The notes under the pieces: model-generated
The model's database searches: none
What the model saw: only the letters and a program-made list of their open reading frames with translations
What the model was told of the DNA's origin: nothing
DNA from: Armatimonadota bacterium
GTDB lineage: Bacteria > Armatimonadota > Fimbriimonadia > Fimbriimonadales > Fimbriimonadaceae
Length of the DNA stretch: 64,000 bases
Direction of reading: 5' to 3'
NCBI GenBank assembly: GCA_020438215.1
Contig: JAGQUX010000013.1
Span: forward strand, 1-64,000
Made by a program: the position numbers and the translations under genes
Shown: in pieces, positions 36,321 to 46,012 of the stretch
Layout of the letters: each line of letters begins with the position of its first letter
Position numbering within the stretch: the stretch's first letter is position 1

Positions 36321-38134
36321 TCGTTCTTGACAACCACGCGGGCATCGCCCTGACGCTGGGTCACGCCGAGCGCGTCCATCTTCTCCAAGATTGGGATGGC
36401 GTATTTCCGGCTTGTGTTGAACAGCGTCCGGAACTCACCAGCAGTGAATCGCTGACCGCCAAGATTCTTTCGCACTGCGCGTACCATCTTGTCCCAAGTG
36501 GCGATGGGATAGAAAAGCCCCTCCCCGAGATAGATGATCTCTTCGGCATCAACACCGACCTTCAGCACCTCTTCCACCGCTTGCTGCGGGATATTGAGGC
36601 TTCGCGACAGTTCATGGGGCAAAGTGACGTTGACTTCGTCTTTCACAAGGATTTCCGTGATGCGATCTAGGAGTTCTCTTTGCTTGGGCTTGAGTTCCAC
36701 CTTATGGTGATACTCAGCGATCCCATTCCCTCTTCTTCGGATGAGTTTCTGCTCATCCAACAGCTTGAAGAAAGCGTCCAACTCCTGGTTTGCCCAGCCG
36801 AGTTTCATTACTGATACAAGCAGGTTCTTGGCGACATAGGCTTGCTCCGATCGTTGAGAATGGAGCGATTTCAAGTTCAAAATCGCCTGTGCCTTGAGAT
36901 TCTCAAAGTTGTCGAACGAGAAAACAAGTGGTCCTAAAACCACCAATTGGTTAGCCTTTCGCGCCTCTTTGACTCGCTCTTGAATCTCCTCTTTCGCCCA
37001 GCCAGTTTGGGCAAGAAACTTCGCCGCCTTAACCCCTTCTGGTCGCCGGGAAAGCCATTCCTGCCAATCGCCACCGCCTTTTGCAACGGCGTTCTTCCGG
37101 CGCTTTTCGGCCAGCGGCTCCATTACCGTTCCCCCTGCGAGAACGATTGGCGGAGAATACTGACGCAGGATCACTCGCTGTCCTTTTGTAATAGCGAACG
37201 GTTTCTCACCGCGGAATTGAAGTAAGGAGTCATCGTGGTCATTGCGGAAGGCTTTGCCCAGCACTTCGCCCGCTCCATAGCTCATCCGGAGCCGCTGACC
37301 ATGCTTGACCTCGCCAATCAAATCCACTTTCAGATCAATCGCCTCGGATGCTACGCAGACCCCCTGCGCGCAGATCACATCACCCCTGCTCACTTCTTCT
37401 TGCTTGATACCAGCGAGCCCAACCGCAACCCGCGAACCAGCCACGGCTTCTTCCACAGATTGAAAATGAGTCTGCAAAGACCTAATCTTGGCTTTCTTTT
37501 TGATTGGGAGAAGTTCCACTTCATCTCCGACCTTAAACCGACCAGAAGCGAGCGTTCCCGTCGCGACCGTACCGCGCCCTTCCACCGTAAACACCCGATC
37601 AATGCTGAGCCAAGCCCCCCCTTTGCGGCTCTGATACTCCTTCAACGATTCAGATAGCAGTGCGCGGAGTTGATCCAATCCCTGACCAGTCTTCGCTGAT
37701 GTCAAAACCACTTGCGGTTCAGCAAATCCATTTTCAGCTAACAACTCCAAAGCTAGGCCCTGGCTCACTTCCAGCTGATCGGAAGTTGCCGCATCGCACC
37801 GAGTCATCACCAAAACAACCGCACGAACATTCAGCAACTTCAAAATCAGCAGGTGTTCTTCGGTTTGTGGCTTGACGCCTTCATCGGCGGCAACACACAG
37901 CAGAGCGATGTCCATACCAGTTGCCCCGGCGAGCATATTGGTAACGAACCGCTCGTGACCAGGAACATCAATAAACGAAATAACCTGCCCGTCTAGCTCC
38001 ATCGAAGCAAAGCCAAGATCAATCGTCAGACCGCGGCGTTTTTCATCCGGGAGCCGATCAGGATCGGCCCCCGTCAGAGCTTGGATCAGAGATGATTTTC
38101 CGTGATCAACGTGTCCGGCGGTGCCAACAATCAT
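36317..38134 (-). CDS. selB: Selenocysteine-specific elongation factor SelB
   Basis: Translation GTPase that delivers Sec-tRNA to UGA codons with a SECIS element. G1 GHVDHGKSSL, the switch region RRGLTIDLGFA, G3 DVPGHERF, and G4 in the form TRCD. Domain II begins RVFTVEGRGTVATGTLASGR. The C-terminal ~250 residues form winged-helix repeats ending YAIPILEKMDALGVTQRQGD, the mRNA-binding arrangement found only in SelB. 605 aa is full length. Its start overlaps the asparaginase stop (ATGA). No selA, selD, tRNA-Sec or selenoprotein was recognised in the window. Confidence 0.95.
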   Translation of the reverse strand: MIVGTAGHVDHGKSSLIQALTGADPDRLPDEKRRGLTIDLGFASMELDGQVISFIDVPGHERFVTNMLAGATGMDIALLCVAADEGVKPQTEEHLLILKLLNVRAVVLVMTRCDAATSDQLEVSQGLALELLAENGFAEPQVVLTSAKTGQGLDQLRALLSESLKEYQSRKGGAWLSIDRVFTVEGRGTVATGTLASGRFKVGDEVELLPIKKKAKIRSLQTHFQSVEEAVAGSRVAVGLAGIKQEEVSRGDVICAQGVCVASEAIDLKVDLIGEVKHGQRLRMSYGAGEVLGKAFRNDHDDSLLQFRGEKPFAITKGQRVILRQYSPPIVLAGGTVMEPLAEKRRKNAVAKGGGDWQEWLSRRPEGVKAAKFLAQTGWAKEEIQERVKEARKANQLVVLGPLVFSFDNFENLKAQAILNLKSLHSQRSEQAYVAKNLLVSVMKLGWANQELDAFFKLLDEQKLIRRRGNGIAEYHHKVELKPKQRELLDRITEILVKDEVNVTLPHELSRSLNIPQQAVEEVLKVGVDAEEIIYLGEGLFYPIATWDKMVRAVRKNLGGQRFTAGEFRTLFNTSRKYAIPILEKMDALGVTQRQGDARVVVKND

Positions 38135-39024
38135 GCCTTTGCGCCAAGTTTGCCGCTGTAATGTTGCGACCGCGAAGTGCCGTGTTCAGATATCCAGAGA
38201 TCAAAGTCGCCCCAACTGATCGAAGCACCGTACCCGCCATTCTTATCCAGAGCAAGAACAACACATTCGCGCTGATGACTGGCAGGTTGCCGCCGGATCA
38301 TTTGATCGATCACTGCATCGCAGGCTTGCTGAGCCGACATCCCTTGCCGCATGAACTCTACTGCTCGGAAGCTTGCACACGCTTTCCAGAGTTCCTCACC
38401 CATACCAGTTGCTCCTGCACAACCAACTTCGTCATCAGCATAGACTCCCGCCCCGACAATCGGAGAATCACCAATCCGGCCAGGAAGTTTGAAGGGCAAT
38501 CCGCTCGTGGAGCTTGCCGCGACAAAGTGTCCATCTTCGCGACCAAGCATCGTGACCGTATCATGCGGCGGCTCATCCTCAGTGGAATGAACATATGCTT
38601 TCGACCGCTCTGGGCTCTCCAAATACATCTGATACCGTCGATTGACCTCATCGGTCATCAGATTCTCGGGGACGAAACCGTTCGCAAGTGCAAATCGCCG
38701 CGCCTGCTCGCCAGCCAACATCACATAAGGCGTTGTGTCTTTGACAATCTGGGCCAGCTTGATCACCGGAAGAATCCCGCGTACCCCGCAAACCGCGCCA
38801 GCTGATAAATCCGAACCGTTCATGATCGCGGCATCGAGTTCGATTTCGCCATCGGAGTTAGGCAAAGCCCCGCGCCCAATCGCGATCAGCTCGGGATGAT
38901 CTTCGGCCGCAGACAGCCCACGCACCAAACAGTTCTCCAGCGAATCGCCTTCTTGATCCGCGACGATTGCCGCATCAATTGCCACTTTCCCGGGCCGGAG
39001 CCAGGTGGAAAGCATTGTTCTCAT
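38131..39024 (-). CDS. Glycosylasparaginase/isoaspartyl peptidase-family Ntn hydrolase
   Basis: Autoprocessing Ntn hydrolase of the N4-(beta-N-acetylglucosaminyl)-L-asparaginase family. The nucleophile Thr156 is in the HDTVTML motif, where the chain is expected to cleave into alpha and beta subunits; GRIGDSPIVGAGVYAD and AGATGMGE provide substrate-binding residues. The alpha part is intact (EIELDAAIMNG, VCGVRGILPVIKLAQ). The HDT motif favours a glycosylasparaginase over a plant-type asparaginase. No signal peptide is visible, so it probably acts in the cytoplasm. ATG at 39024, or 39015. It overlaps selB by ATGA. Confidence 0.9.
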   Translation of the reverse strand: MRTMLSTWLRPGKVAIDAAIVADQEGDSLENCLVRGLSAAEDHPELIAIGRGALPNSDGEIELDAAIMNGSDLSAGAVCGVRGILPVIKLAQIVKDTTPYVMLAGEQARRFALANGFVPENLMTDEVNRRYQMYLESPERSKAYVHSTEDEPPHDTVTMLGREDGHFVAASSTSGLPFKLPGRIGDSPIVGAGVYADDEVGCAGATGMGEELWKACASFRAVEFMRQGMSAQQACDAVIDQMIRRQPASHQRECVVLALDKNGGYGASISWGDFDLWISEHGTSRSQHYSGKLGAKA

Positions 39025-39062: not shown

Positions 39063-39485
39063 TTATTCCCGTGTTGTCGGCAACGGTTTTTCAAACAGCC
39101 GAATGTTTTCATCGATGCTCAACAAGTTCTGGAAAGACTCCAACATCTTTTGCGCTTCTGATTCAAAGCGAAACGACCCGGCAACTTCCCCTTGCCAAAT
39201 CGTCTGTATCACCCAATCCGGCACAGGCATAAAGACAACGCGCTCAGGCGGCGTGATCGTCACAGGAAAAACAATTGCGCTTGCCAGCGGGTCGTGGTAA
39301 AGGAATTCAATTACGATCTTGTGGGGATGAAAGACTGTGCTCCCCATCTGTGGAGCCCCTTTTTCGTTCGCCTCCGCCCACAGAGCCTCATCAAATGAGC
39401 CTTGGCTTGGGGGCTTGCGATCGCTCAATTCCGCAAAGATTTCTCGCTTGATCCGCGCACAAAAAACCGCTAGTGGCTCACTCAT
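39063..39485 (-). CDS. Hypothetical protein, 140 aa
   Basis: Family not recognised. Soluble, without signal or transmembrane segment. The central part is rich in Val/Pro strands (TVFHPHKIVIEFLYHDPLAS, then VITPPERVVFMPVPDW), followed by WQGEVAGSFRFESEAQKM and a helical C-terminus, which suggests a small beta domain. It lies 38 bp upstream of the asparaginase gene on the same strand and shares the 207-bp divergent region with the flagellin gene. Confidence 0.65.
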   Translation of the reverse strand: MSEPLAVFCARIKREIFAELSDRKPPSQGSFDEALWAEANEKGAPQMGSTVFHPHKIVIEFLYHDPLASAIVFPVTITPPERVVFMPVPDWVIQTIWQGEVAGSFRFESEAQKMLESFQNLLSIDENIRLFEKPLPTTRE

Positions 39486-39692: not shown

Positions 39693-41090
39693 ATGTCATT
39701 TCGAATCAACACAAACGTAACCGCATCTAACGCTTATCGCAACCTTTCGATGACCGGCTCGGAACTCGCAAAGGCTACCACCCGACTTTCAACTGGTCTC
39801 CGCATCAACAACGGTTCGGACGATCCGTCTGGTCTCATTGCTTCTGAAAGCTATCGAGCCCAAATCGGTGGTATTGATGCGGCACTTCGCAACAACCAAG
39901 ACGCTTTGAACTACGCTAAGACCGCTGAAGGTGGTCTGGATGAAGTGTCCCGACTGCTCCGCGATGCTCGCGCCCTGGCAGTTGCCAACGGTAACAGCAC
40001 GCTCGACTCTGCTCAAAAGCAAGCGAACCAAACCCAGCTCAACAACATCTTGACTTCTATCGACCGAATCTCGAGCAACACTCAGTTCGGTACTCAGAAG
40101 CTTCTGGATGGTTCTGCTGGTACTTCCGCAACCATCGTCAAAACCAACAATGCAAGCTCCGCTAACTTTAGTGGAACGATTGGTGGTACGGCTGTCACTG
40201 TGGCAGGTCAAGTTGACGTCAACGTTACAGCGGCAGCTGAACAAGCAACCCTTTCTGGAACCGTTACCTTCACTGCAGGAACTGTTCTTACAGGAGCTGG
40301 TAGCTTCACAGTCAACGGTAAAACGTTCACGACCAACTCGGCTACTACACGAGATCAACTTCTTCAACAAATCAATGAGTCTTCAGCAGAAACGGGTGTT
40401 ACGGCATCAATTACTGCAGGAAACGTTTTCAAATTCGATTCTGTTGATTACGGAACTGATGCTTCGGTTAGCTTTGTTGACCACACAGGTCTTCTCAAAG
40501 CTCAAGGTGGTGCAACTGACGCTGGCGTCAATGCTGCCGCGACCGTAACATTCACTCCAGATGGTGGATCCGCTGTTACAGCTGCATTCAACAAGGGTAA
40601 AGGTCTGGAACTCCGCGATGTGGACGGTAACTCGATCACACTGACCAAAACCGGTAACGCAACTGGTTCCGTAACCAGCGTTGCTCGGCTCAGCGCAGAT
40701 GCTTCCAAGTTCCAAATCGGTGGTAATGCAGGTCAAACTGCGAGCCTCAGCATTGGCAACTACAGTGCTTCCAGCCTCAGCATCAGCGGTCTTGACATCA
40801 CTGGTTCCAGCATGGACGCTGCTCTGGCATCGCTAGACAGCGCAATCAGCCGCGTTGCTGAAGATCGCGGTCGCATCGGATCGTTCATGAAGAACACGTT
40901 GGAATCCAACGTCCGAAGCCTCGGCGTTGCTCGAGAAAACCTGAGCGCAACCGAATCTTCTCTCCGAGAAATCGACGTTGCACAAGAAATGACCAACTAC
41001 ACCAAACTGCAAATCCTGCAACAATCTGGTCTGTCGGTTCTTTCTCAAGCCAACTCGGCACCGCAGTCCGTTCTGTCCTTGCTCCGATAA
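39693..41090 (+). CDS. fliC: Flagellin
   Basis: Structural protein of the flagellar filament, exported by the flagellar type III system (no signal peptide). The conserved N-terminal D0/D1 helices (MSFRINTNVTASNAYRNL, LSTGLRINNGSDDPSGLIAS, AEGGLDEVSRLLRDARALAV) and the C-terminal helices (DRGRIGSFMKNTLESNVRSL, ENLSATESSLREIDVAQEMT, QSGLSVLSQANSAPQSVLSL) are canonical. The central ~200 residues (~150-360) are a variable beta-rich, Ser/Thr/Ala/Gly-rich domain, a likely glycosylation target. It is monocistronic, bounded by a strong terminator, and followed by two OGT-type transferases on the opposite strand. No other flagellar gene is nearby. Confidence 0.97.
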   Translation: MSFRINTNVTASNAYRNLSMTGSELAKATTRLSTGLRINNGSDDPSGLIASESYRAQIGGIDAALRNNQDALNYAKTAEGGLDEVSRLLRDARALAVANGNSTLDSAQKQANQTQLNNILTSIDRISSNTQFGTQKLLDGSAGTSATIVKTNNASSANFSGTIGGTAVTVAGQVDVNVTAAAEQATLSGTVTFTAGTVLTGAGSFTVNGKTFTTNSATTRDQLLQQINESSAETGVTASITAGNVFKFDSVDYGTDASVSFVDHTGLLKAQGGATDAGVNAAATVTFTPDGGSAVTAAFNKGKGLELRDVDGNSITLTKTGNATGSVTSVARLSADASKFQIGGNAGQTASLSIGNYSASSLSISGLDITGSSMDAALASLDSAISRVAEDRGRIGSFMKNTLESNVRSLGVARENLSATESSLREIDVAQEMTNYTKLQILQQSGLSVLSQANSAPQSVLSLLR

Positions 41091-41124
41091 TTCGGAACCT
41101 GGGCCAGATCACTGGCAAAAAGAA

Positions 41125-41158
41125 AACCCCGCGAGATTCTCGCGGGGTTCTTTTTTTT
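41125..41158 (+). terminator. Rho-independent terminator after flagellin
   Basis: GC-rich stem AACCCCGCG / CGCGGGGTT (arms 41125-41133 and 41141-41149), 7-nt loop, followed by C and a run of eight or more Ts. Classic intrinsic terminator 34 bp after the flagellin stop, fitting a highly expressed single gene. Confidence 0.95.
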
Positions 41159-41172
41159 GTCTGAGACCGTGA

Positions 41173-43377
41173 TTACTTCAAGCTTTCGAGAGCATCGGCG
41201 AATGCTTTTGCAAATTTCTTACCGTCACAGATCGGGCTCGTCAGCACTTGTCCGCGCAAACCTTCGCGCCATTTCTGAAGTCGATCTTGGCTTTGCGCCA
41301 TCGAAACAGCCTTTTCAACGTAATCCTCAATCGAGCGGGTGACAAACTCGCCAAGCCCAACCGATCTGAGGATCGAAGTGGACATCCGCGCATGATGGCC
41401 CTGCCCTTCCATCGTCACAACCGGGACGCCCATCCAAAGGCTCTCTATAGTTGTGGTTGCTCCATTGTACGGCCAAGTGTCCAGGCTGACATCCACCTGA
41501 TTGAAGCTGGCAAAGTGCATTTGCCAAGTCGTGTTTTGCCGGAAAACAACCCGCGAAGAGTCAATCCCGTGATTCTTGAACCAAGCCAGGTACTGGCGAC
41601 GTAACGCACCAGAAGCCAATGCCTTCCCTTTGATCATGATGCGGCTATCAGGTACCTGAGCGAGAATCTTGCTCCAAACCTCCACCGACTCCTTATTAAT
41701 CTTGCGGGTGTGATTGAAAACTCCAAAAGTGAACGGTTCACCAGCGCGCGATGGCAGCCCCTCAACTTCCACATCCACTCGCGGAGGAGTGAAGCATAGC
41801 CAAGGAGTGTCTAGGCGAACAACATTTTCGGTGTAGAGGTGATCCTGGCTTTCTGGAGTCACATCTTTATCGCCAATGATTGCGTGCATCTGCGGCAAAC
41901 CAGTCGTCCCGGAGAATCCGAGCCATGTCACTTGAATCGGTGCCGGATTCCGAGTGAACACTCCCAAGTTGTTTCCGCCCGTATGTCCAGCCAGATCAAC
42001 CAAAACATCAATGTGGTCTGACTCGATCATGCCGGCAACCGTGTCGTCATCCAACCCGATGATGTGCCGCCATTCTTTGCAATATTCGTTCAGGGTTTCG
42101 CCCTGTTGGTCTCGCGCACCGGAGTTGGCGTAAACATAAATCTCGTACTTCTCGGAATCGAGGTTTGCAAAAAGTGCTTCCGCGAAAGTTCCGACCGGGT
42201 GTTCGCACAAGTCGCCGCTGATAAACCCAACGCGTCGGATTTTCTGCGGTTTTGGCTTTGGTGGAAATACGTCTTTCCCGAATCGCTTGCCATAGCGAAC
42301 CGCTTCTTCCTTCACCGCTTCTGCGCTCGAAATCAGTGCATGTTGTTGGGCGAAAACGACATTGGAAGCGAATTCTCGAGCTTGGGTAACCGACTCCGCC
42401 GCCTTTTTGTACTCATTAATCGCTTCATCAATCAGCGAGGAGTCGAGGTAGGTGTTGCCAAGGATGTTATGCCCTTCGGCAAATTCGGGGTCAATCGTGA
42501 TCGCGCGCTGGCACGCCTGCATCGCTTCATCAAGGCGACCGAGATTTCGCAAAGCTTCCGCCCGATTACAGTGCGCCGGGGCCAAGCTGTCATTCAGTTG
42601 GACTGCTTGGATGCAGGCTTCAAGAGCAGCGGCGGGTTGCTTGAGGTGGAGAAATGCCCGCCCCAAGTTGCCATAAGCCGATGCATAAGCCGGGTCGAGT
42701 TTGATCGCGGCTCGGAATGTCTCCGACGCTTCTTTGACCTGCCCGAGAGCATGGAGCGCCAGTCCAAGCGTGTTGTACGCCTTGACGTTGCGCTTATCAA
42801 TCATGATTGCGCTGTGACAAGCCGCCATTGCTTCGTCATATTGCCCCAACTCGTGGTACGCCAAAGCCATGTTTGAATACGCGTGAGTGTGGGTTGGGTC
42901 AAGGGAAGCCGCTCGGCGATAGTGAACAATTGCTGTTTCCCACTCCTTCAACTTCGTGTAGGTGTTCGCCAAATTGTAGTGAGCATCCGGGAAGTTTGGG
43001 TTGAGTTCCAACGCGGTTTGGAAAGCGTTGACCGCATCATCTGATTGCCCAATGCCCTGCAAAGCTGCGCCGTAATTTGACCAAGCTTCAGCGAAATTGG
43101 GATTGAGTGCAGTCAGTTTCTCAAGAATCTCAATCGCGCCTTCAAAATCTGTGTAGTGGATGCGGAGGGCCGCCAACAAGTGCATAGCATCCTGGTTTTC
43201 GGGATCTTCACCCAACACCGACGTGTAGATTTCTTCGGCGATGTGATGTCGCCCTTCTCGGTGGTGGGAAAGCCCCGTCTGAACCATCTGCGCAACGGTA
43301 CTCGCCGACGTGGATAGTTCGTATCCCGTCGTGAGATCTCGTGCGTGACGTTCTGCTTTCTTCAGAAAGTGATTCAT
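41173..43377 (-). CDS. TPR-repeat O-GlcNAc-transferase-like protein (734 aa)
   Basis: Cytoplasmic protein O-glycosyltransferase of family GT41 (SPINDLY/OGT). Residues ~25-330 are tandem tetratricopeptide repeats (NYGAALQGIGQSDDAVNAFQ, NLANTYTKLKEWETAIVHYR, NMALAYHELGQYDEAMAACH and more). The GT41 domain (~375-720) has CEHPVGTF, DLAGHTGGNN, WLGFSGTTGLPQM, NHTRKINKESVEVW and DTWPYNGATTTIESLWMGVP, so the His and Lys positions important in OGT are kept. ATG 43377 is preferred over a TTG at 43398. It lies downstream of the second OGT-like gene and converges on the flagellin terminator, so flagellin is the obvious substrate candidate (inference). Confidence 0.9.
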   Translation of the reverse strand: MNHFLKKAERHARDLTTGYELSTSASTVAQMVQTGLSHHREGRHHIAEEIYTSVLGEDPENQDAMHLLAALRIHYTDFEGAIEILEKLTALNPNFAEAWSNYGAALQGIGQSDDAVNAFQTALELNPNFPDAHYNLANTYTKLKEWETAIVHYRRAASLDPTHTHAYSNMALAYHELGQYDEAMAACHSAIMIDKRNVKAYNTLGLALHALGQVKEASETFRAAIKLDPAYASAYGNLGRAFLHLKQPAAALEACIQAVQLNDSLAPAHCNRAEALRNLGRLDEAMQACQRAITIDPEFAEGHNILGNTYLDSSLIDEAINEYKKAAESVTQAREFASNVVFAQQHALISSAEAVKEEAVRYGKRFGKDVFPPKPKPQKIRRVGFISGDLCEHPVGTFAEALFANLDSEKYEIYVYANSGARDQQGETLNEYCKEWRHIIGLDDDTVAGMIESDHIDVLVDLAGHTGGNNLGVFTRNPAPIQVTWLGFSGTTGLPQMHAIIGDKDVTPESQDHLYTENVVRLDTPWLCFTPPRVDVEVEGLPSRAGEPFTFGVFNHTRKINKESVEVWSKILAQVPDSRIMIKGKALASGALRRQYLAWFKNHGIDSSRVVFRQNTTWQMHFASFNQVDVSLDTWPYNGATTTIESLWMGVPVVTMEGQGHHARMSTSILRSVGLGEFVTRSIEDYVEKAVSMAQSQDRLQKWREGLRGQVLTSPICDGKKFAKAFADALESLK

Positions 43378-43428
43378 GCTGACTGCCGTCGGGCGCAATG
43401 CACCCTGGTAAATTTATCGGGCAGTACT

Positions 43429-45174
43429 TTAGGTTTTTGAAGGGAAAATTTTCTCCCACATGTTAAAGATCGCATTTTCGAAGTTGAGTGCGAACCTATG
43501 ACCATCCACAAGGGCCGACTTCGGCCACTGCTCCACGATCTTCGCTTCCACCTCTTTTCGATAAGCATGATCGGTCGCGAGTCTCACCGCAAGATCGATA
43601 TATTCCTCACCCGAATGTGTGATCAGTTCTTCCAATCCAGCTGCTGCCAAAATGCTTGCGGCCATGCGTTGGTTGTATCGTTCACCCGCCCATGTCACCA
43701 CCGGAGTCGCCACTGTCAGAGCATCAACGGTCGTCGTGGCTCCGTTATAAACTGGAGTATCGAGCACGATATCCACGCTCCGCACCATTTCGATATGCTC
43801 CTCATACGGGAGTGAGCCGTGGATTTCAAAGCGATCCTCTGGGATTCCGGCGGCAATGAACCGCTTGGTGTAATTCTCATTTGCAAGCTTCCCACCGAGG
43901 CTCATGTACTTGACCACCAGCTTGGAACCCGGCACCTGCCGCAGAATCTCCGCCCACATCAACATCGCGGTATGAGTGATCTTCATCGGGTTGTTGAAGC
44001 TGCCAAAAACAGTCGGCTCACCCTCTGGTTTTTGCGGTTTGGGTTTGACCTCTACGCCCGGGAAACAGAAACAAGAATCCGGGAGCCGGATGATCTGCTC
44101 TACCACGGAATTCTCGTACTCAACCGGAATGGTCACGTTATCGGCGATGAAGAAATCCATCTGTGAGAGACCGGTGGTTGCGCTGTACCCAAGATAAGTC
44201 GCCTGCACCGGCGCGGGCCGCTTCGCAAACAACGGAAGCAAGTTCGCCGAAGTGTGCCCGCTCAAATCAATCAAGACATCCACATCAGCTTGCCGCACAA
44301 TGCTGTAAATCTGATCAATCGGTTTCCCAGCCACCATATGCCACTCGGCGCAATTCCGCATCAAAACCTGAGTGACATCATCCTTACGATCCGAATTAGA
44401 AAATGCGATGATCTGGAACTGTGATTTGTCAATGTGCTCCAGGAGCATCATCATGAATTTGCCTACTGGGTGACCGTACAAGTCCCCAGAAACAAAACCG
44501 ATCCTTTGCGGGCGTTTCCGAGTGGGTACCGGACGCGGAGCCTCAGGAAAACGCGAGCCGAACATCGCGTGGGCTTGTCGGAAGTCCTCGTTCGGGATTC
44601 CTTCCCCGTACCCGAGCTGGAAAAGCCACACAAACCAGTTCTCATCCACCGTGGGGTCGGCTTTGATGAGTTCGGACATGGTGTTCGTGCCGCGTTCATT
44701 TAAGCCCAAAACAAAATCAGTACATGCCCGGTTGAGCATCGCTTCACGGAATGGGCCAGCAATCTCAATCGCACGATCCACATGGTAATTCGCAGCATCA
44801 ATATCGTGCAGATACCGGAGCGCACCAGCTAAGTTGTTATGGGCGGCGGCATTCTGATCATCGAGCTCTACCGCTTTCCGGCAGACTTCCGCTGAATCCT
44901 CATAGCGATGCAGAATCCGATACGCATTCCCCAGATTTGACCAGTATTCGGAGTTTCGTGGGTCGAGATTGCACGCTTTTTCTAGTTTCTCGACTCCCCG
45001 CTCGACTTCCCCACTTTGAAAGTCAAGAATGCCATCGGCGTTCCAAACGGGATGTGCTTCGGGGTACTCCGCTTCGATCGCCTGGTACCTCTCCGAAGCA
45101 GCCGCAAATTGCGCTTCGGAATGAAGATTCAGTGCTTCTTCAAATTGGCTGTTCCAGGGTGGTGTTCCGCTCAT
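43429..45174 (-). CDS. TPR-repeat O-GlcNAc-transferase-like protein (581 aa)
   Basis: Second GT41 transferase with fewer TPRs (residues ~10-165; NLGNAYRILHRYEDSAEVCR, NLAGALRYLHDIDAANYHVD). The catalytic domain (~215-570) has YGHPVGKF, DLSGHTSANL, YLGYSATTGLSQMDF, NNPMKITHTAMLMWAEILRQ and DTPVYNGATTTVDALTVATP. It is clearly paralogous to the downstream gene but divergent in the TPR part, so the two may recognise different proteins or sites. ATG 45174 has AGG 7 nt upstream. The 85-bp region upstream is shared with a divergent methyltransferase. Confidence 0.9.
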   Translation of the reverse strand: MSGTPPWNSQFEEALNLHSEAQFAAASERYQAIEAEYPEAHPVWNADGILDFQSGEVERGVEKLEKACNLDPRNSEYWSNLGNAYRILHRYEDSAEVCRKAVELDDQNAAAHNNLAGALRYLHDIDAANYHVDRAIEIAGPFREAMLNRACTDFVLGLNERGTNTMSELIKADPTVDENWFVWLFQLGYGEGIPNEDFRQAHAMFGSRFPEAPRPVPTRKRPQRIGFVSGDLYGHPVGKFMMMLLEHIDKSQFQIIAFSNSDRKDDVTQVLMRNCAEWHMVAGKPIDQIYSIVRQADVDVLIDLSGHTSANLLPLFAKRPAPVQATYLGYSATTGLSQMDFFIADNVTIPVEYENSVVEQIIRLPDSCFCFPGVEVKPKPQKPEGEPTVFGSFNNPMKITHTAMLMWAEILRQVPGSKLVVKYMSLGGKLANENYTKRFIAAGIPEDRFEIHGSLPYEEHIEMVRSVDIVLDTPVYNGATTTVDALTVATPVVTWAGERYNQRMAASILAAAGLEELITHSGEEYIDLAVRLATDHAYRKEVEAKIVEQWPKSALVDGHRFALNFENAIFNMWEKIFPSKT

Positions 45175-45259: not shown

Positions 45260-46012
45260 ATGCATCTCCCCATTCAAAGCGACGACCTACAAGCTCAGAT
45301 CGATTCGTTTCCGTATTGGTACCACCGAATCGAACTCCCTGGCGGTCACGTGACTCCCGGTTGGGCACCTATGGCTCCTGAAGCCTACAATGTCCCGCAA
45401 GATCTCACTGGAAAGCGCGTTTTGGACGTAGGAGCCTGGGACGGATTTTGGTCTTTTGAAGCAATGAAGCGTGGAGCCGCAGAAGTTGTCGCCATTGACG
45501 ATTTCAGCGATTTTCTTGGATCATTGGGCAACGAAGATCGCAAAGCCTGGGAAAACTTCGATTTCTGCCGAGAAGCACTTGGCTATCCCGAATCTCAATG
45601 TCAACGCATCGAAATGAGCGTGTACGAAGTAAACCCAGAACGATTGGGTGAATTCGATATCGTGTTCTGCTTTGGCGTGCTCTATCACCTTCGATATCCG
45701 CTGCTTGCTCTCGATATGCTCAGCAGTGTTTGCAAAGATGAAATCTATATCGAAACCGCAGTTTGCGACGATTTCAGCCCGTATCAAGGTGGATTCGGAA
45801 AAGGATATCCGGGTGCACAACCCGTCATGGAGTTTTATCCGAACAACGAATACGGTAATAACAACACCAACTGGTGGGCCCCTTCCCTCTCCTGTCTTGG
45901 CCTGATGACCATGTCAGCGGGATGGATGGATGTAGAAGTCTGGAAGCTCACCGAGAATCCACAGGCACTTCCCCATTGCCGCGGATTTGCTCGCGGAAAG
46001 AAAGCGGCTTAG
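45260..46012 (+). CDS. SAM-dependent methyltransferase (CmoB/DUF1698-like)
   Basis: 250-aa class I methyltransferase. Motif I is VLDVGAWDGFWSFEAMKRGA followed by VVAIDDF; the downstream FDIVFCFGVLYHLRYPLLAL is typical of the CmoB-like Methyltransf_9 family. The N-terminal FPYWYHRIELPGGHVTPGW also fits that family (F.W.h...L..g..T.G). True CmoB modifies tRNA wobble uridine, but short CmoB-like enzymes in glycosylation loci methylate sugars; next to flagellin and two OGTs the latter is plausible (inference). GGAC precedes the ATG. The stop overlaps the convergent gene by 4 bp. Confidence 0.8.
   Translation: MHLPIQSDDLQAQIDSFPYWYHRIELPGGHVTPGWAPMAPEAYNVPQDLTGKRVLDVGAWDGFWSFEAMKRGAAEVVAIDDFSDFLGSLGNEDRKAWENFDFCREALGYPESQCQRIEMSVYEVNPERLGEFDIVFCFGVLYHLRYPLLALDMLSSVCKDEIYIETAVCDDFSPYQGGFGKGYPGAQPVMEFYPNNEYGNNNTNWWAPSLSCLGLMTMSAGWMDVEVWKLTENPQALPHCRGFARGKKAA

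Follow-up and report, generated by a model that had tools for sequence, protein, structure and literature searches.

Gene content and layout of the locus

The window analyzed here is a 64,000-nucleotide stretch of an Armatimonadota genome from the family Fimbriimonadaceae (contig JAGQUX010000013.1). It contains a flagellin gene, two genes for TPR proteins with a GT41 glycosyltransferase domain (OGT1 and OGT2) and a methyltransferase gene (MT), along with the neighboring features listed in Table 1. The probable start codon of OGT1 is the ATG at position 43377, giving a predicted protein of 734 aa, because its orthologues begin with MNRF.

Table 1. Features of the flagellin-OGT locus, with positions in the window
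Feature	Position	Strand	Remarks
140-aa protein without known family	39063..39485	-	Divergent from FliC, travels with FliC
Flagellin FliC, 465 aa	39693..41090	+	Pfam Flagellin_N/C; putative substrate; orthologue beside OGT cluster in five genera
Intrinsic terminator, bidirectional, strong	41123..41151	.	Between FliC and OGT1
OGT1, long-class TPR-GT41, active-site residues intact	41173..43398	-	
OGT2, short-class TPR-GT41, 581 aa, active-site residues intact	43429..45174	-	Upstream of OGT1, same direction
MT, class I SAM methyltransferase, 250 aa, CmoB-like fold	45260..46012	+	Divergent from OGT2

FliC matched the Pfam families Flagellin_N (6.7e-33) and Flagellin_C (8.9e-22) and is one of three flagellins in the genome, which also encodes FlgL. 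Its gene lies tail-to-tail with the OGT2-OGT1 pair, and the intervening terminator has a stem of 13 pairs on the minus strand and 11 pairs on the plus strand, with a T-run. An operon of flagellin and OGTs is ruled out by the convergent orientation and this terminator. Thus, the genes form a neighborhood rather than an operon, and the statement in the initial annotation that the OGTs lie directly behind the flagellin holds for their position but not for co-transcription. A scan for sigma-70-like promoters gave no clear excess over shuffled sequence.

The 140-aa protein divergent from FliC had no matches in Pfam or NCBIfam. It was kept adjoining FliC at other loci, even where FliC is located apart from the OGT (L175, 10622-11041). 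It is possibly a flagellin-specific factor, and its membership in a glycosylation module is uncertain. A gene of the Asparaginase_2 family (isoaspartyl peptidase/asparaginase-like) is located at 38134-39024, between SelB and the flagellin, in conserved synteny.

OGT1 matched the GT41 family at 1.1e-46 and contains at least six TPRs, while OGT2 matched at 2.9e-52 and contains a few. Their Pfam scores for GT41 were 159.6 and 178.1 bits (cut-off 25), and TPR families were matched in both. The two proteins are 33% identical and are the only GT41 proteins encoded in the 2.64-Mb genome. Both contain equivalents of the catalytic lysine (K665 in SPINDLY, K842 in human OGT) and the phosphate-binding threonine (T748), and likewise of N661, H728 and Y744 in SPINDLY. 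This confirms the earlier description of a flagellin beside two paralogous TPR-GT41 genes with the key motifs. In a tree of GT41 sequences, both proteins fell within a single clade of 44 sequences (support 0.96), OGT1 in a long class and OGT2 in a short class. Both classes are old and kept across genera, and the pair is therefore not the product of a recent duplication. XcOGT grouped with the Fimbriimonad OGTs, but on a long branch, and this placement was not trusted.

Conservation of the OGT-flagellin neighborhood and of the methyltransferase

We surveyed synteny in 113 genomes of the order, with GT41 genes in 42 and flagellin genes in 98. At the level of whole genomes, the presence of GT41 was not significantly associated with that of flagellin (39/42 versus 59/71, P=0.16, 113 genomes), since GT41 comprises several unrelated clades. 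The informative test is thus the one at the level of clades. For the clade of the window OGTs, a flagellin gene was located within 20 kb at 17 of 23 loci, as compared to none of the 18 loci of other GT41 clades (Fisher 1.5e-6). Flagellin is encoded in each of the 23 genomes that contain this clade. In 15 genomes from five genera, the flagellin orthologue was the same each time and directly convergent with the OGT cluster. The clusters hold one to four OGTs, a frequent arrangement being MT, short OGT, long OGT, short OGT, flagellin, and the layout of an intact TPR-GT41 pair beside a flagellin with a divergent MT is conserved across genera of the Fimbriimonadaceae. The wider neighborhood, including AddAB and SelB, is also conserved across loci, and the linkage between OGTs and flagellin may therefore partly represent inherited synteny.

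The MT gene had been missed by the initial annotation. It was found in 16 of the 113 genomes surveyed within the order, and the 291 genomes searched across the phylum yielded no further copy; 15 of these 16 genomes also contain GT41 (Fisher 6e-7, without correction for kinship). MT accompanies clusters of at least two OGTs and is divergent from the cluster wherever the contigs allow checking, the exception being one solitary copy in an incomplete genome. At 64-74% identity across genera, it is far more conserved than the OGTs. MT belongs to the candidate module. A 65% identical MT was also found among four GT41 genes in a Thermodesulfovibrionales MAG (L121, 1147-11167), in which, possibly because the MAG is incomplete, a search for flagellin returned none; the partnership of MT with OGTs is therefore not strictly tied to flagellin. 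OGT genes in flagellin-less genomes had been named at the outset as evidence against a role in flagellin modification. Such genes do occur, in this MAG and in other GT41 clades, but not in the clade of the window. On plasmids, only distant homologues of MT (33-36% identity) were found.

The predicted structure of MT (pLDDT 86) was nearest to CmoB (Z 19.2, 2.9 A over 219 residues), with a further resemblance to EvdMO1, which has been solved with D-fucose (Z 17.5). MT shares the class I fold with both enzymes but is at most 24% identical to them and shorter than CmoB, its score against the NCBIfam CmoB equivalog (57.7 bits) is below the cut-off of 209, and the fold alone shows no function. We infer that MT methylates a sugar.

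Active-site states and the candidate sugar donor

The seven other species of the genus all contain a single OGT1, without OGT2 and without MT. In six of the seven this OGT1 is directly convergent with the flagellin, and the seven proteins form one clade, sister to OGT1 of the window. All seven have lost the equivalents of D491, H495, Y744 and T748 in SPINDLY and kept those of K665 and H728. Single mutations of Y744 or T748 are sufficient to cripple SPINDLY (PMC9715652). In these proteins the TPR domain is better conserved than the GT domain, whereas most comparisons between intact orthologues show the opposite. For two close species pairs, dN/dS was 0.010-0.023 in both domains, other pairs being near saturation; the genes are therefore not pseudogenes. 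The OGT1 of the sister species looks like a flagellin-linked pseudoenzyme. Tentatively, and at somewhat less than even likelihood, we propose that it is a pseudo-glycosyltransferase under strong purifying selection in both domains whose present role is to bind flagellin as a chaperone or assembly factor, with the window gene representing the intact, presumably catalytic state and possibly an O-fucosyltransferase. Elsewhere, an independent OGT1-like copy (L076, 6614-8995) is partly altered, with changes in the HPVG and ATTT motifs, and has neither OGT2, MT nor a nearby flagellin.

The central domain of FliC had been described as rich in serine and threonine. The enrichment proved to be modest rather than strong, with 27.0% Ser/Thr in the central region versus 25.4% and 22.0% in the two paralogues of the genome. 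Across genomes, the central Ser/Thr content was 27.9% in FliC beside intact OGTs (n=9), 24.9% where the OGTs are altered (n=7, FliC adjoining the OGT in all but one) and 23.9% in unlinked flagellin paralogues (n=11). The difference between FliC beside intact OGTs and the paralogues gave P=0.0005, uncorrected for kinship and obtained from small, related samples. Site by site, there was no excess of Ser/Thr residues conserved alongside intact OGTs but lost where the OGT is altered (9 sites, versus 8 in the reverse direction).

With regard to the donor, a profile of the clade matched TtOGT from Thermobaculum terrenum at 3e-115 and SPINDLY at 7e-115, as compared to about 1e-71 for human OGT. Tyr744 of SPINDLY corresponds to Cys917 of human OGT, and Zhu et al. 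argue that this residue sets the room for the sugar and that tyrosine excludes GlcNAc (PMC9715652). An O-GlcNAc transferase would be expected to carry a small residue here, whereas both window OGTs carry tyrosine, as does every intact OGT, in addition to equivalents of K665 and T748. The window genome encodes GDP-L-fucose synthase (fcl) and GDP-mannose 4,6-dehydratase (gmd), the latter split over two contig ends. The gmd gene was found in all 16 genomes with MT versus 45 of the 97 others, but it also serves surface polysaccharides and other glycans. A CMP-pseudaminate or CMP-legionaminate donor was rejected: a search for NeuB in the window genome gave only a weak match (4.5e-8, versus about 1e-100 for true NeuB), and true NeuB is present in only 7 of the 16 MT genomes. 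The tyrosine site and the nucleotide-sugar genes thus favor GDP-6-deoxyhexose over GlcNAc or pseudaminate and point away from the sugar implied by the initial annotation, making O-GlcNAc a doubtful product. Our guess is that the donor is not UDP-GlcNAc or CMP-pseudaminate but a small hexose, most likely GDP-L-fucose. The split gmd gene spans the end of L191 and the start of L192 (G000 C40/C25) and is followed by fcl. Should these contigs be contiguous, it would lie about 7 kb downstream of flgK-flgL-fliW.

A candidate flagellin glycosylation module

From these comparisons of sequence and gene order, we consider it likely that the locus encodes a cytoplasmic flagellin O-glycosylation module composed of FliC, the two OGTs and MT, with the donor suggested above. 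The module proposed in the initial annotation thereby gains support from the recurrence of a clade-specific flagellin linkage in several genera and from the presence of flagellin in all genomes with the clade. The OGT pair and its dedicated methyltransferase probably decorate the flagellum. The TPR superhelices of the OGTs would bind FliC before export, by analogy with FlmG, after which each GT41 domain would move a sugar from a nucleotide sugar onto serine or threonine residues of the exposed central region. The paralogues may share this work by acting on different sites or by adding successive sugars, the presence of two OGTs being equally compatible with both, and MT would then methylate the attached sugar.

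A stepwise assembly, in which FliC receives its first sugar from one OGT and an extension from the other before MT caps the glycan, all at a single set of sites, is somewhat unlikely. The joint absence of OGT2 and MT from all seven sister species that retain OGT1, and the occurrence of MT with clusters of several OGTs, are consistent with such a chain, but TPR domains are present in both OGTs, as expected if the acceptor is a protein and not a sugar, and the best alignments of both GT domains are to enzymes that modify proteins. It is also unlikely, to a greater degree, that the OGTs modify other surface or cytosolic proteins and adjoin FliC through inherited synteny. This would account for the six loci of the clade without a nearby flagellin, for the MT and OGTs of the Thermodesulfovibrionales MAG and for the equally conserved AddAB/SelB flanks; the restriction of the flagellin linkage to the window clade, the flagellin genes in every genome with that clade and the flagellin-linked GT41 genes of distant phyla argue against it.

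The reading given in the initial annotation, with two O-GlcNAc transferases each having its own flagellin sites or substrate, draws on the very different TPR lengths of the paralogues beside one flagellin. It is improbable in view of the tyrosine at the position of the human cysteine and of a GT domain far nearer to SPINDLY and TtOGT than to human OGT. Very improbable is a role for both OGTs mainly in binding flagellin, with catalysis secondary: the sister-species OGT1 retains its TPRs and fold under purifying selection despite the altered active site, but both active sites in the window are complete, and intact orthologues usually show stronger conservation in the GT domain than in the TPR domain.

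If the proposed module is correct, flagellin glycosylation by TPR-GT41 proteins reaches the Armatimonadota, with the labor divided between ancient paralogues and a dedicated methyltransferase; should the sugar be fucose, the OGTs would be a bacterial counterpart of the plant SPINDLY. The sister species would then represent a natural before-and-after experiment of a protein glycosyltransferase becoming a non-catalytic flagellin partner, in which the shares of binding and sugar transfer in the role of the enzyme can be tested. Our literature search returned nothing on point for flagellin O-fucosylation, GT41 genes beside flagellin or flagellar glycosyltransferase pseudoenzymes. Flagellin glycosylation by a TPR-GT41 protein is already known from FlmG, whereas the following are new as far as the searched literature shows: the Armatimonadota module, its dedicated methyltransferase, a donor site resembling that of SPINDLY, and sister copies that stay constrained with altered active sites.

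In Caulobacter crescentus, the TPR domain of FlmG binds flagellins and the protein is required for their modification (PMC7591256). FlmG has an N-terminal TPR domain and a C-terminal GT-B domain, the Caulobacter protein matches the GT41 model, and modification takes place in the cytoplasm; a TPR-GT protein linked to flagellin is likewise found in the window. FlmG differs in being a single enzyme that serves six flagellins with a pseudaminic acid donor, whereas in the window one flagellin is accompanied by two paralogues and a methyltransferase partner, in a genome that lacks true NeuB. The plant protein O-fucosyltransferase SPINDLY, a GT41 enzyme, shares the TPR-GT41 architecture and five active-site equivalents with the window OGTs but is a eukaryotic nucleocytoplasmic regulator. 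TtOGT (5djs), the best profile match among solved structures, is a bacterial TPR-GT41 protein with tyrosine at the Y744 position, although its GT domain is on another branch of the tree. To our knowledge, TtOGT has no link to flagellin. No O-GlcNAc activity was found for it (PMC9715652).

Flagellin genes near GT41 genes were also observed in Burkholderia, Paraburkholderia, Pseudomonas, Mariprofundus and Desulfobacterales. For Burkholderia and Paraburkholderia there are reports of flagellin glycosylation, and at three loci from these genera (L093, L099 and L110) three to four tandem GT41 genes converge on fliC, so that the layout of the window recurs in another phylum. As in the window, the clusters of Burkholderia and Pseudomonas syringae have several glycosyltransferases per flagellin, those of the latter being the glycosylation genes fgt1 and fgt2 (PMC3927599), but they belong to another phylum and GT clade and lack an MT homologue at these loci. 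Paralogous flagellin glycosyltransferases that differ in site specificity are known in the case of Maf-1 and Maf-2 (cited in PMC13317340). A Planctomycetota contig (L106) carries at least seven tandem GT41 genes.
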